DNA from: an uncultured Chlorobiota bacterium
Lineage (GTDB): Bacteria > Bacteroidota > Ignavibacteria > UBA10030 > UBA6906
Length of the DNA stretch: 64,000 bases
Assembly: GCA_900696645.1 (NCBI GenBank)
Contig: CAADGV010000005.1
Location: forward strand, 121,724-185,723
Reading direction: 5' to 3'
The notes under the pieces are model-generated. The model saw nothing but the letters and a program-made list of their open reading frames with translations. It made no database searches and had not been told where the DNA came from. How positions within the stretch are numbered: position 1 is the stretch's first letter; each line of letters opens with the position of its first letter. Shown one piece after another: positions 23,237 through 29,033 of this stretch. A program made the position numbers and the translations under genes.

Positions 23237-24430
23237 CTAATCCATAATCCTTCTCAAAAATGCCGGCTTCTCCGGATCATTCTTGTCGATCTTCTCGCGA
23301 TCTTCCTTCGCCGAATCCTGTGCAGGCCGATAGGCAACCTGCAGGTCAACTCCCCGACGGGCAAATGCCGGAGTATCGTAGTTCTTCAACTCGGTGACAC
23401 CGGTAGGAATGCGTTCAACTGTCTTTGGCGTTTTCAAACCGGGACGAATGCCGGTCCCGACCGTCACCGAAGGGCGGCGGTTGAAACCTGTTGCAATTAC
23501 CGTCACCATAATATCATCCGTCATTTTCTCGTCGACCACAGCGCCGAGAATGACATTCACATCCTCGCCTGCGGCTCCATGAATGATTTCCGTTGCTTCC
23601 TCGATCTCAGACAGCGACATGTTGGGTCCGCCGGTGATGTTGACCAGCACGCCTTGCGCGCCGCCGATCGTCACATCCTCAAGCAGCGGACTTGAGATGG
23701 CTTCATGCGCGGCGACGGTTGCACGATTCTCGCCCGAGGCAACGCCGGTGCCCATTACTGCATCGCCCATCTCCTTCATCACTGTTCGAACATCAGCAAA
23801 GTCAACGTTGATGAGACCCGGAACGGTAATCACTTCCGAGATACCGCGGGTTGCGCCGTAGAGGACGTTATTGGCGACATCGAACGCAACCTGCAACGGG
23901 GTCGTCTTCTCCACAACCGACAACAGTTTTTGGTTCGGGATGATGATGAGGGTATCGACCTGTTTTTTCAGTTCCTCGATTCCCATTTCCGCCTGCGCAT
24001 TGCGTCGTTTGCCTTCGCAGTTGAAGGGACGGGTAACAATCCCGACCACCAATGCGCCGACACTCTTCGCGATGTTTGCCACAAGAGGGGCGCCGCCTGT
24101 TCCCGTGCCACCACCCATTCCCGCCGTTACAAACACCATGTCGGTGCCGGCAAGCGCGCGCGCAATTTCATCGCGATCCTCTTCAACAGCGCGGTGTCCG
24201 ACTGTCGGGTCGGCGCCGGCTCCGAGGCCGCGGGTAAGGTTCTTGCCGATTTGAATTTTGTTCGGCGCGGCGTTCCGCTCCAACGCCTGCAAATCCGTGT
24301 TGATCGCAAAAAAGTCCACGCCATGCAGACCCTTCGCAATCATGCTGTTGATTGCGTTGCCCCCGCCGCCGCCGACACCGACGACGCGAATCTTGGCACC
24401 GCGCTCGAAGAAATCATCGAGTTCGATCAC
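23237..24430 (-). CDS. ftsZ: Cell division protein FtsZ
   Basis: Tubulin-like GTPase that builds the division ring, 397 residues, start GTG at 24430 with AAGGAG upstream. It has the T4 loop GMGGGTGTGGAP near residue 105, the NTDLQAL and GVGGGGGNA nucleotide-binding loops, and NVDFADVRTVM for the T7 catalytic loop. A variable linker leads to the conserved C-terminal peptide PAFLRRIMD that binds FtsA. It is the last gene of the dcw cluster, 88 bases after ftsA; this gap probably holds an extra ftsZ promoter. Confidence 0.98.
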   Translation of the reverse strand: MIELDDFFERGAKIRVVGVGGGGGNAINSMIAKGLHGVDFFAINTDLQALERNAAPNKIQIGKNLTRGLGAGADPTVGHRAVEEDRDEIARALAGTDMVFVTAGMGGGTGTGGAPLVANIAKSVGALVVGIVTRPFNCEGKRRNAQAEMGIEELKKQVDTLIIIPNQKLLSVVEKTTPLQVAFDVANNVLYGATRGISEVITVPGLINVDFADVRTVMKEMGDAVMGTGVASGENRATVAAHEAISSPLLEDVTIGGAQGVLVNITGGPNMSLSEIEEATEIIHGAAGEDVNVILGAVVDEKMTDDIMVTVIATGFNRRPSVTVGTGIRPGLKTPKTVERIPTGVTELKNYDTPAFARRGVDLQVAYRPAQDSAKEDREKIDKNDPEKPAFLRRIMD

Positions 24431-24518: not shown

Positions 24519-25781
24519 TTACAATTCATCAAACCACGACTTCATCTTCTCAAGAATGTTTGTTTTGCCGATGAGCGGCATTTTCAACTTGCTTGTTGTC
24601 TTCTCGCCCGTGCTGGACGGTGTCGCAGATTCTCTTTCCTGACACTTGAGTCCGTGATACACAAGGCCGACCGCCGTGGCGTACACGGGGTTTTCAATCT
24701 CGCGAACCAACCCGCCTGCAAAGCCTGTCGGGATGCCGATCTTGACCGGCATGCCGAGAACTTCCCGCGCCAGCTCCGCCGTTCCCTTGATGAGGGCGCC
24801 GCCGCCGGTAAGCACAACGCCCGCCGAGAGATGTTTTGAGTAGCCGGAGCGCTTGATCTCCAGCGCGGCAATTTCGAAGATTTCTTCCATACGCGGTTGG
24901 ATAATTGTCGCCAGAAGTCGCTTGTCGATTTCAATCGGCTGCCTGCCGCCGACGCCCGGCAGAATGATCGGGTCGTTGTCCAGAACGGCAGGCACGTACG
25001 CGAAACCGTGATCCTTCTTCAGCTTCTCCGCCTGATCGCCGAGAATGCCAAGACCCTTGCGAATATCGTCAGTCACCTTTCTTCCGGCAATTCCGATCAC
25101 TGCCGTGTGCCTGATGGTTCGCTCTTCGAAGACGGCAAGGTCGGTCGTTCCGCCGCCGACATCGAGCAGCGCAATGCCAACCTCCTTCTCCTCGTCATCG
25201 AGCACGGCATAACTGGATGCAAGAGGCTCAAGCACCATATCTTCGACTTTCAGTCCCGCACGCTCGACACACTTGAAGATGTTTTGCGCGGCGCTGACCA
25301 GACCGGTGATAATATGAACATTCGCCTCCATGCGAACGCCGGACATGCCAAGCGGATCATACACGCCATCTTGCCCGTCGATGATGAATTCCTGCGGGAT
25401 GACGTGAATGATTTTTCTGTCGGACGGCAATGCCACACGTTTTGTATCTTCGATCAGCCGGTCGATATCCGATTGCGTCACCTCATGCTCGGGGCCGCTG
25501 ATGCCGATCACGCCGCGACTTTGAAAGCTCTGAATATGATCTCCCGCGATCCCGACAATGACCGACTTGATGTCGACACCCGATTGCGAGCGTGCTTCAT
25601 CAACGGCCGTGCTGACAGAGCGGATGGTCTTGTCGATGTGCGTGACAACTCCCCGCACAATGCCGTCTGATTGGGCACGCCCGACACCAAGAATGTTGAT
25701 GCGCCCATGTTCGTCCATACCCGCGACAACGGCACACACTTTCGTGGTTCCGATATCAAGTCCGACAATGATGTTACCCAT
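24519..25781 (-). CDS. ftsA: Cell division protein FtsA
   Basis: Actin-like protein that tethers FtsZ to the membrane, 420 residues. The start MGNIIVGLDIGTTKVCAV at 25781 follows an AAAGGA site; the frame is open to 25850 but the extra residues overlap ftsQ. The phosphate-binding loops GLDIGTTK and LLDVGGGTTD, the Asp/Gly-rich VVLTGGGALIKG adenosine motif, and a C-terminal amphipathic helix (KMKSWFDEL) that inserts into the membrane are all visible. Confidence 0.97.
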   Translation of the reverse strand: MGNIIVGLDIGTTKVCAVVAGMDEHGRINILGVGRAQSDGIVRGVVTHIDKTIRSVSTAVDEARSQSGVDIKSVIVGIAGDHIQSFQSRGVIGISGPEHEVTQSDIDRLIEDTKRVALPSDRKIIHVIPQEFIIDGQDGVYDPLGMSGVRMEANVHIITGLVSAAQNIFKCVERAGLKVEDMVLEPLASSYAVLDDEEKEVGIALLDVGGGTTDLAVFEERTIRHTAVIGIAGRKVTDDIRKGLGILGDQAEKLKKDHGFAYVPAVLDNDPIILPGVGGRQPIEIDKRLLATIIQPRMEEIFEIAALEIKRSGYSKHLSAGVVLTGGGALIKGTAELAREVLGMPVKIGIPTGFAGGLVREIENPVYATAVGLVYHGLKCQERESATPSSTGEKTTSKLKMPLIGKTNILEKMKSWFDEL

Positions 25782-25794
25782 AGATGTTCCTTTG

Positions 25795-26589
25795 TTAAGA
25801 GTGAGCGTCTCCGTTGTCGTGATTCCATCGAACCACGACCTGATCTTCAAATCGTAAATCTATATACAGCAACTCGTGCGCGCCTTGTGAAGCCACCACG
25901 GATTTCCAGAAGCCGTCGAACTTCACCAGTCTCGTTCCGACCTGCGTCCGTCCGAGAACGACCGGAATCCCGAATTCCGATGTATAAAAGACAAAATCAC
26001 CATTGTTCTTTACGTTGATCTCCGAAATATTCAGATACAACTCCTCGTCAACTTGTCGCGCAACGGAAAGAACATACAAAGCATCGAGCGTGCTCTTGTT
26101 GGTTGACTTCTTGCCCGTTACGATTACGCCTTCGCCCAACGAGCCCGACAACACCGGAAGGTCAAAGATATGCTCTGAACGGATCTGGGGAAGAATATAC
26201 CCCTCTTCATCCAGATAGTAGAGCTTGTCTGCCACCATTGCGGCTACAGGCACGCGTTCTTCGATGGTGATGCGAACGCGATTGGGGATGTCGCGAAGCA
26301 CGGCCACCGATTTTACATACGCATGTTTCATGACGCGCTGTTCAATTGTGTACAGATCCAATTCGAACAGCTTTGTATTTTCGGGCACCTTTGCCAACGC
26401 AAGGATATCCTTTGTCGGAACATTGCGATTGCCTTCAACGGTGACATTTTCAACCCGCCGGTCTTCTTTCCAGAGATTCGCCTGTATTGCCACGGCAGTC
26501 ACCATGATGACAAGAAAAGCCATCAAGAGAAAACTTCGCTTGCTGCTTTTTCCTGAATGCGCCCCGGATATGTTGCCCTGTTCCATCAT
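25795..26589 (-). CDS. ftsQ: Cell division protein FtsQ/DivIB
   Basis: A bitopic divisome protein of 264 residues. A short cytoplasmic tail and one membrane helix (about residues 19-38) are followed by a POTRA domain (VENVTVEGNRNVPTKDILAL to VRITIEERVPVA). The beta domain contains YYLDEEGYIL and a run of strands that bind FtsL/FtsB. It lies between the shortened murB and ftsA, 3 and 13 bases away, clearly in the same transcript. Confidence 0.93.
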   Translation of the reverse strand: MMEQGNISGAHSGKSSKRSFLLMAFLVIMVTAVAIQANLWKEDRRVENVTVEGNRNVPTKDILALAKVPENTKLFELDLYTIEQRVMKHAYVKSVAVLRDIPNRVRITIEERVPVAAMVADKLYYLDEEGYILPQIRSEHIFDLPVLSGSLGEGVIVTGKKSTNKSTLDALYVLSVARQVDEELYLNISEINVKNNGDFVFYTSEFGIPVVLGRTQVGTRLVKFDGFWKSVVASQGAHELLYIDLRFEDQVVVRWNHDNGDAHS

Positions 26590-26592
26590 GTG

Positions 26593-27123
26593 CTATGCTA
26601 CCCGAGCGAGAGCATCATTTTCGAAACCGATGAACTGCATATCCATCTCCGGTCGAACGCCGCATCGTTCTTCAATAATCCGGGACGCGTGCAGAACGAG
26701 AGCACAAACATCAGCGGCAGTTGCGTTGCCTGTAGTTGCGACATTGTTTCCAACTATCTCGGCTCCGCCGAGAATCAGCCCGTTCAATCCTGCCATATCG
26801 ATCAGCGCTTCTGCCGCGCCCGACTCGTTCGACCTGAAGATGCGAGCAGTTTGCATCATACTTTGCGCGTCATCCGGCTTACCGGACAGAATCACGGCTC
26901 CACGAAATCCCTGGTCCGAAACGACTGCGTTGGCAGAAAGCACAATGTGGGGAAAGCCGTTCTTTTGGAAAAACTTCCGCAACGCATCAACTTCGTCGGC
27001 AGACGTTGCATGCAACACGTAGTCGGCAGGCCCGCCAACGCGCAACGGACTGTAGCGCGCAACCGGATCGCTGAACGAAATCGAGCCGTGAAAGAATTGT
27101 TGTATGTCGGTCAGTGAAAGCAT
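26593..27123 (-). CDS. Severely shortened MurB-like protein (UDP-N-acetylenolpyruvoylglucosamine reductase remnant)
   Basis: A 176-residue ORF at the standard murB position between murC and ftsQ. Residues 24-75 match the start of MurB (RVGGPADY at 29-35 and VVSDQGFRG near 67-75). Residues 103-166 match its C-terminal domain (LIDMAGLNG, the GGAEIV turn, TGNATAADV, PEMDMQFIG with the acidic Glu159). The FAD-pyrophosphate GGSN loop is replaced by LSANA. About 110-150 residues of the FAD and substrate domain, including the catalytic Ser region, are missing. The frame is intact with an AAGGA site. It therefore looks unable to do the standard NADPH-dependent reduction. Either it has a new role, is a decaying gene, or the true MurB is elsewhere. 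Confidence 0.8.
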   Translation of the reverse strand: MLSLTDIQQFFHGSISFSDPVARYSPLRVGGPADYVLHATSADEVDALRKFFQKNGFPHIVLSANAVVSDQGFRGAVILSGKPDDAQSMMQTARIFRSNESGAAEALIDMAGLNGLILGGAEIVGNNVATTGNATAADVCALVLHASRIIEERCGVRPEMDMQFIGFENDALARVA

Positions 27124-27129
27124 TTCCTT

Positions 27130-28515
27130 CTAAGCCTTCTCCCCCTTCAGTTTTTTGATGAATTCCTCCCCGTACTTCCAGATATCGCCCGCACCCATTG
27201 TGATGATGATGTCGCCGCGCTTCTTCATCTTCATCAGGAAATCGGGTATGTTCTTTTTGTCGGGAACATAATGAACGTTCTTGTGTCCGAATTCCTTCGC
27301 CGTATTCGCGATAAGCTCGCCGGTAATTCCCTGTATCGGCTCTTCCCGTGCCGGATAAACATCCGTCAGCACGAGAACATCCGCGTTGAAGAACGACCGG
27401 CCAAAGTCTTCATAGAAATCTCTGGTTCGGGAATACAGATGCGGTTGAAACACACACACGACTCTGCGTCTCCATCCCGATTTCACTCCGGCCAGCGTCA
27501 CGGCAATTTCCGTCGGGTGATGGGCGTAGTCGTCAACAACCATGATACCGTTGATCTCGGCTTTTACCTCCCATCGACGGAATACGCCCGTGAACTTCTC
27601 GATACCGGTTTTGACTCGCGCAAACGGAACCTGCAACTCAAGCCCCACGGCAATAGCCGCAAGCGCGTTCTGTACGTTATGCTTCCCGGGAATTTGCAGC
27701 GTGATTTCGCCAAGCTCCTTCCCCTCACGGATAACAATGAATGTGGAGGCGTTTTCTTTGTGCCGAACATCCACCGCCTGGAGATCGGCCTGACCGTTCA
27801 AACCGTAGGTGATGATCTTCTTCTTGATCTTCGGCATGATCTCCTGCAATGCCGGCTCATCAAGACAAAGCACAACGAATCCGTAGAACGGAACTTTCGA
27901 TGCAAATTGTATGAACGCCGATTTGATATCCTCAAGATCGCGATAGCAATCAAGATGATCGGTTTCGAGCGTCGTCAACACGGCAACGGTCGGGGTGATG
28001 GACAGAAACGATCTATCGAACTCGTCCGCTTCGACAACGATGAACTCGCCTTTACCGAGCCGTGCATTCGAGCCGGCAAGCCCGTGCAACCTTCCTCCCA
28101 CAATCACCGTCGGATCGATGCCGCCCTCCATCAACACAAGGCTGACCATTGATGTTGTGGTTGTTTTGCCGTGTGTTCCGGCGATGCCGATGCCGTATTT
28201 CAAGCGCATAACTTCGGCGAGCATTTCGGCCCGACGAATAACCGGGAGTTTGCGTCGCTGCGCTTCGACAATCTCCGGATTATCGAGCGCAAGGGCGGAG
28301 GAATAGACAAGCACATCTACATCCGCCTCAAGATGCTTTGCATCGTGGCCGATGTACACCTTCGCCCCCAGCGAAGCAATCCGCTCGGTGTTGTCGCTTT
28401 CGGCTTTGTCCGAGCCGGTTATTGCAAACCCCTGGTCGATCAGGATTTCCGCGATACCGCTCATGCCGATGCCGCCGATACCGACAAAGTGAAGTTTTCT
28501 TATTGATCGAAACAC
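27130..28515 (-). CDS. murC: UDP-N-acetylmuramate-L-alanine ligase
   Basis: Adds L-alanine to UDP-MurNAc, the first amino acid of the stem peptide. 461 residues, start GTG at 28515. The N-terminal Rossmann motif HFVGIGGIGMSGIAEIL is diagnostic of MurC. The ATP-binding GIAGTHGKTTTTSMV lies near residue 110, with EADEFDRSF and the C-terminal DDYAHHPTEI. It lies eight bases after the two-TM orf and seven before the shortened murB. Confidence 0.97.
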   Translation of the reverse strand: MFRSIRKLHFVGIGGIGMSGIAEILIDQGFAITGSDKAESDNTERIASLGAKVYIGHDAKHLEADVDVLVYSSALALDNPEIVEAQRRKLPVIRRAEMLAEVMRLKYGIGIAGTHGKTTTTSMVSLVLMEGGIDPTVIVGGRLHGLAGSNARLGKGEFIVVEADEFDRSFLSITPTVAVLTTLETDHLDCYRDLEDIKSAFIQFASKVPFYGFVVLCLDEPALQEIMPKIKKKIITYGLNGQADLQAVDVRHKENASTFIVIREGKELGEITLQIPGKHNVQNALAAIAVGLELQVPFARVKTGIEKFTGVFRRWEVKAEINGIMVVDDYAHHPTEIAVTLAGVKSGWRRRVVCVFQPHLYSRTRDFYEDFGRSFFNADVLVLTDVYPAREEPIQGITGELIANTAKEFGHKNVHYVPDKKNIPDFLMKMKKRGDIIITMGAGDIWKYGEEFIKKLKGEKA

Positions 28516-28523
28516 GGTTTCTG

Positions 28524-29033
28524 CTACCTGTCAGTAAATCGTGGTTTGCTCCAGCGCGGGCGTTTGCGCTTCGGAACGTGTTGTGCAATTCTTTCCATTT
28601 CGTGAATCAATTCCTTTTCCTTCTCATATCTCCCGATTCTGATTCGAATGGCTCTGCGTCTCCCTTTGAGTTTGATCAGAACGACTTGAAATCTGCCGCT
28701 GGTTTGCACGAAACGCTCGCGGCCTATGTGCATCCATTCAATTTCCTTTGTGTGAAGAACGCGCTCGTGAAAGCGGTTCTTGAACGTAATGGAATTCTCT
28801 GCAACGACCACCCGGCGGTTACGGATGTAGTTCAATATCAGCGACCCAATCGACATCAACACGAAGAAGATGATGATGTAGAGAATCGGATCGTTCATCA
28901 CGTACCTGAATTCTTTTTCGACAAACGAACCGCGAATGCCGCCGTATGCTACAAGTGTCAGAAGATAAATCAGCGCGGACACATAGTAGAAATCGAGTTT
29001 GTACCTGAACACCTTTTCGTGGTGCGCTTCCAT
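28524..29033 (-). CDS. Two-TM membrane protein with a PH-like domain, unknown function
   Basis: A 169-residue protein lying between murG and murC. Two membrane segments (about residues 13-32 and 48-70) are followed by a cytoplasmic beta-rich region (NRRVVVAENSITFKNRF, HTKEIEWMHIGR, FQVVLIKLKGRRRAIRIRIG) and a basic helix (KEKELIHEMERIAQHV). This order is that of bacterial PH-domain-like (DUF304/YcxB-like) proteins, but no sequence family is certain. It starts one base past the murG stop and ends eight bases before murC, so it is made with the cell-wall enzymes. No role can be stated. Confidence 0.6.
   Translation of the reverse strand: MEAHHEKVFRYKLDFYYVSALIYLLTLVAYGGIRGSFVEKEFRYVMNDPILYIIIFFVLMSIGSLILNYIRNRRVVVAENSITFKNRFHERVLHTKEIEWMHIGRERFVQTSGRFQVVLIKLKGRRRAIRIRIGRYEKEKELIHEMERIAQHVPKRKRPRWSKPRFTDR

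Follow-up and report, generated by a model that had tools for sequence, protein, structure and literature searches.

The shortened murB locus

In the dcw cluster of an uncultured member of the Ignavibacteria, the place between murC and ftsQ where murB would be expected is taken by an open reading frame (ORF) much too short for a complete MurB. This raises the question of whether the organism is missing a step of wall-precursor synthesis, whether the gene is damaged in the cell or in the assembly, or whether the product is a protein in its own right. We examined the locus in a window of 64,000 nucleotides, together with the rest of the genome (hereafter G000) and those of its relatives; all positions are those of the window.

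The ORF was confirmed at 26593–27123 on the minus strand, as originally annotated, where it runs from ATG to TAG and encodes 176 residues; its identity is given by a Pfam MurB_C match and by same-length orthologues in the genomes G002 and G001. Upstream lies murC (27130–28515, minus strand), a 461-residue ORF with 70–96% identity across the family and its sister family, and downstream lies ftsQ (25795–26589, minus strand), the gene order being the same in relatives. ftsA (24519–25778, minus strand; the listed ORF begins upstream, at 25850, and the ATG of MGNIIVG was chosen) and ftsZ (23237–24430, minus strand) were recognized from their ORF sequences, and the ORFs before murC, named by reading the sequences, are murG, ftsW, murD, mraY and murF. 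A 169-residue ORF resembling a membrane protein is situated between murG and murC (28524–29033, minus strand).

The stop codon of murC is 6 nt from the ATG of the short murB, the stop codon of which is in turn 3 nt from ftsQ, and, judged by this spacing, the short gene is presumably co-transcribed with ftsQ. The ribosome site of the short murB was overstated in the initial annotation, where it was called good: all that can be read in the sequence is a GG 2–4 nt 5′ of the ATG, and, therefore, coupling to the translation of murC is more likely. A clear ribosome site of its own could not be read for ftsQ either. The description of the frame as intact holds, and a frameshifted or split murB is ruled out, since the frame is open, there is no adjoining MurB fragment and the middle of the protein is absent altogether. 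An antisense ORF on the plus strand (26557–27117) was rejected as a conserved gene: a stop codon interrupts it in G002, and the substitutions are distributed in keeping with the minus frame.

Anatomy of the excised protein

The short ORF scores above the curated cut-off of Pfam MurB_C over residues 92–165 (32.5 versus 27 bits), but falls well short as a full-length equivalog: of the NCBIfam MurB models, NF010480 is matched in two separated pieces only (68.7 bits; cut-off 259), and TIGR00179 scores 38 against a cut-off of 144.5. The significant matches to solved structures are all MurB, with type II entries on top. For the alignment and residue map, we used as reference L080, an intact dcw MurB of Ignavibacteria.

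Three parts can be delineated. Domain I (residues 1–80, VGGPADY...SDQGFRGAVI; 26884–27123, minus strand) is defined by alignment with intact relatives, by the structural match of the model to 4pyt and by its dN/dS. Although the GGSN loop was initially reported as missing, only the motif is destroyed: the site of the FAD loop sits within the retained N-terminal part, shortened by two residues and degenerate, with SAN (in the present protein) or QST where relatives have GRGSN. The linker at the excision scar (residues 81–91; 26851–26883, minus strand) is recognized from the residue map against L080 and from its own dN/dS; what has been excised here is domain II, with its YRxS motif, and the first lobe of domain III, corresponding to about residues 81–217 of L080. 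Residues 84–176 of the short form correspond to the part of L080 from about residue 210 onwards, with ~130 residues gone, and the Tyr-Arg motif has left along with domain II in all three known short forms. The outer lobe of domain III (MurB_C, residues 92–168; 26620–26850, minus strand), defined by Pfam, alignment and dN/dS, has a three-residue deletion in the SEKH loop and a substitution at the proton donor. In MurB this donor, within GSxF, is Ser in type IIa and Cys in type IIb enzymes. The middle carrying the active Ser had been considered lost; in fact, the Ser position is still there, ARIF replacing the GSMF of relatives (Ser to Arg), with VRIF in G002 and VAMF in G001. In the C-terminal Glu region, PEMDMQF stands against LELEVKL, such that one Glu is kept and one changed, either of which may be the catalytic residue.

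In Pseudomonas MurB, domain I comprises residues 1–75 and 336–339, domain II residues 76–191 and domain III residues 192–335, and lobe 2 of the latter adjoins domain I (PMC3689657). By these limits, the two modules that the short form retains are in contact with each other in the parent MurB. With the motifs and domain II gone, the short protein probably does not bind flavin.

AlphaFold2, given a 21-row alignment, modelled the short protein with a pLDDT of 88 and a pTM of 0.81, values that are helped by the inclusion of full-length MurB in that alignment; the G001 orthologue folded without an alignment gave a pLDDT of 40. Overall, the short protein is likely to fold. Foldseek and VIA-align returned MurB as the best match, with Z up to 17.6 (4pyt) and 165 residues aligned; when domain I is taken by itself, further flavoenzymes, those of the vanillyl-alcohol oxidase type, are matched as well.

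The short form is homologous to type IIa MurB (Staphylococcus aureus 1HSK; Listeria monocytogenes 3TX1 and 4PYT) in domain I and the outer lobe of domain III, the predicted fold of the kept parts is the same, and the murC–murB–ftsQ place is that of the intact Ignavibacteria copies. Unlike these enzymes, it has neither domain II nor lobe 1 of domain III, and it is devoid of the GxGSN motif, the YR motif and the Ser donor.

A complete type I MurB at a second locus

A second complete murB was sought throughout the genome (4.2 Mb, 46 contigs, completeness 100), which contains exactly two MurB_C matches: the short ORF and a 355-residue ORF on contig C7. The latter carries GGGSN, YRRS and GSFFKNP, exceeds the curated equivalog cut-off (NF010478; 356.7 versus 231 bits) and has M. 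tuberculosis MurB as its nearest solved structure; its score and the greater length of its MurB_C region identify it as a type I enzyme. The organism is, therefore, not short of the MurB reaction, which refutes a missing MurB step; the conjecture that UDP-MurNAc is made by another enzyme is borne out insofar as this protein, on sequence grounds, can make it. In place of the dcw copy, the genome relies on this kind of enzyme, known from E. coli, P. aeruginosa and M. tuberculosis (5JZX) and encoded here at a separate locus. Type I MurB is not the ancestor of the dcw ORF, the better sequence matches of which are type II enzymes. Directly 5′ of the type I murB, and overlapping it, is an ORF that by eye is XdhC-like (L001 39–845 in G000; L008 36–833 in G001).

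Distribution among relatives

When related genomes were examined for a shortened murB between murC and ftsQ, G002 and G001 were found to carry one, so that the same short form is present in three genomes of one genus (176 residues in G000 and G002, and 174 in G001), with 81% (G002) and 44% (G001) identity to that of G000. The related named records are Ignavibacteria, and the G001 sequence is JACRFA010000220.1; for one of these two congeners, the short form is also present in a public record that carries a name (L079). That a normal murB was merely shortened by a sequencing or assembly deletion, which would have disposed of the matter, has a negligible probability: we found no point in its support, and the short form recurs, with diverged sequence, in two further independent assemblies from the genus.

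The dcw site could be classified in 20 of the 21 family genomes (that of G013 could not be read): the three above have the short form, four carry the gene at full length (G006, G011, G012 and G018) and 13 have none, ftsQ being the next gene after murC in these 13. Full-length copies at this locus in relatives had been named as a possible refutation of the shortened gene; they do exist in the family, but all four are themselves damaged. The Ser is replaced in three of them (by Ala, Ala and Phe), the YR motif is lost in three of the four and GxGSN is altered in three of the four, and they score 186–242 bits against the cut-off of 259, compared with 348 for the intact L080. Outside the family, intact copies are usual, and the intact dcw relatives there retain GxGSN, YRxS and GSxFKNP. 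Of the genomes read from the sister family f6, some have a type I MurB alone and lack a dcw murB, and the others have just an intact dcw copy. A type I-like MurB outside the dcw cluster is present in 20 of the 21 family genomes (19 with all motifs, and one cut by the contig end), including all three with the short form; the sole exception is G011, a 70% complete assembly. That the dcw cluster of the FBC group lacks murB is already known (PMC8871954).

Among 391 genomes of the class, no further clearly short MurB form was found, and three MurB matches in frames of 200–219 residues may be contig-edge cuts. As a query against the genome contigs, the single short protein gave no match, whereas an alignment query did retrieve relatives. 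A separate Ignavibacteria dcw MurB (L095 529–1356; 275 residues) has intact motifs and a shorter C-terminal part, which may be due to a sequencing error or to another shortening that arose independently. In a tree of dcw MurB sequences, the three short forms group together (100/99), their link to the damaged long copies being left unresolved by long branches; the murC tree is weakly supported within the family and gives no count of the independent losses.

Selection on the short form

As the excision is common to three genomes, it most likely predates their split, and, thus, the divergence between G000 and G002 measures selection on the short form itself. The dN/dS is 0.22 (95% interval 0.135–0.347; none of 2000 bootstraps gave a value of at least 1), and the substitutions by codon position number 17, 22 and 51. 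Constraint is concentrated on the folded parts: dN/dS is 0.15 for residues 1–79, 0.85 for the linker (residues 80–91) and 0.27 for residues 92–167. Of the neutral simulations taken to 0.5 substitutions per site (observed dS, 0.52), 1.4% retained an open frame. The antisense shadow ORF has a dN/dS of 1.4. Compared with its neighbours, the short murB is less constrained (murC 0.034 and ftsQ 0.087), and it ranks 47th of 50 ORF pairs between the window and G002, that is, among the highest values; the constraint is, therefore, weak. For the type I MurB, the dN/dS between G000 and G002 is 0.12; the identity between these two genomes is 81% for both proteins, and to G001 it is 44% for the short form versus 59% for the type I enzyme.

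The proposal in the initial annotation of a new MurB-derived, non-flavin protein is in keeping with these results, in that, by its sequence, the product has neither flavin-binding nor catalytic motifs and yet is under purifying selection; it is very probably a non-catalytic protein under selection. Purifying selection that persists after the loss of catalysis, which is seen here, is one mark of a pseudoenzyme, another being an expressed product with a non-catalytic function. The short MurB resembles pseudoenzymes in general in having lost catalytic residues with selection retained on the protein, but differs in that most of the cofactor domain has been removed too.

Origin and possible role

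The reading that we favour, and consider probable, is that a displaced MurB became a small non-catalytic protein that is kept for a candidate role. The type I MurB at the other locus would have taken over UDP-MurNAc synthesis, relaxing the old dcw copy (the order of events being our inference), and the original type IIa dcw MurB would then have lost its catalytic residues. In this genus, a single frame-preserving excision would then have removed domain II together with lobe 1 of domain III, leaving what is predicted to be a small folded protein that has lost the FAD site, the active site and the substrate cleft, and which would be translated together with murC and ftsQ and retained by purifying selection. 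It may act by binding a component of the cytoplasmic machinery for wall precursors or for division, a suggestion that we put forward tentatively, at slightly less than even odds. Mur enzymes are reported to tend to associate (PMC4929429) and, taken with the gene neighbourhood, this points to MurC, the type I MurB and the cytoplasmic end of FtsQ as candidate partners. The more specific idea that the remodelled MurB is a new small cytoplasmic protein linking precursor synthesis (MurC and MurB) to FtsQ is improbable on present evidence.

Counting against a kept role are the weak constraint and the disappearance of the dcw gene from 13 of the 21 family genomes; the gene is, therefore, dispensable over evolutionary time. 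Together with its decay in four others, this loss would also suit a slowly decaying relic, a functionless protein the frame of which survives mainly for translational coupling from murC to ftsQ, as would the weaker constraint relative to neighbouring genes, the very tight spacing and the indistinct ribosome site of ftsQ. We nevertheless regard a relic as rather unlikely. The dN/dS is well below 1, with constraint concentrated on the folded parts, and coupling by itself would not conserve amino acids; moreover, a length of 174–176 residues is maintained down to 44% identity, and several genomes without the gene have ftsQ directly after murC, so that the operon can do without it. Alternatively, the short protein could be an auxiliary subunit that stabilizes or regulates the type I MurB through inherited MurB domain contacts: the two co-occur in all three genomes with the short form, and the kept modules adjoin each other according to the domain description (PMC3689657). 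However, most family genomes have a type I MurB without any dcw copy, and the type I MurB of Pseudomonas is monomeric (PMC3689657), which makes such a subunit very unlikely.

Seen as a displaced enzyme kept in non-catalytic form, the dcw MurB illustrates the replacement of an essential enzyme in stages: it is intact in relatives and, within one family, is found motif-damaged at full length, domain-excised or lost. If the excised protein has a role, then dcw MurB does something besides reduction, and, if the link between MurC/MurB and FtsQ were true, the catalytic and structural roles of MurB would be separable. MurB is essential, and any role besides reduction is otherwise hard to test. A study cited in PMC8871954 reportedly deals with how important the location of murB is in the B. 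subtilis dcw cluster. Among the papers searched (for MurB with pseudoenzyme, truncated dcw MurB, and Ignavibacteria), none describes a protein of this kind. For annotation, the locus carries a warning, as the dcw 'murB' fragment here signifies neither missing wall synthesis nor a pseudogene.

A separate observation concerns G049 and G052, two genomes of the same order (family f5, genus g32; 97% and 99% complete), which are without MurB_C, MurC and FtsZ; all of their Mur ligases are missing except one FolC-like protein, and transpeptidase-domain proteins are kept. The gap reflects either one missing dcw contig or a loss of wall synthesis and FtsZ; their congener G051 has MurB_C, MurC, the Mur ligases and FtsZ in one dcw cluster. 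One of the transpeptidase-domain matches (G049:C80:24032–24973) lies inside a single open frame of 8601 residues.
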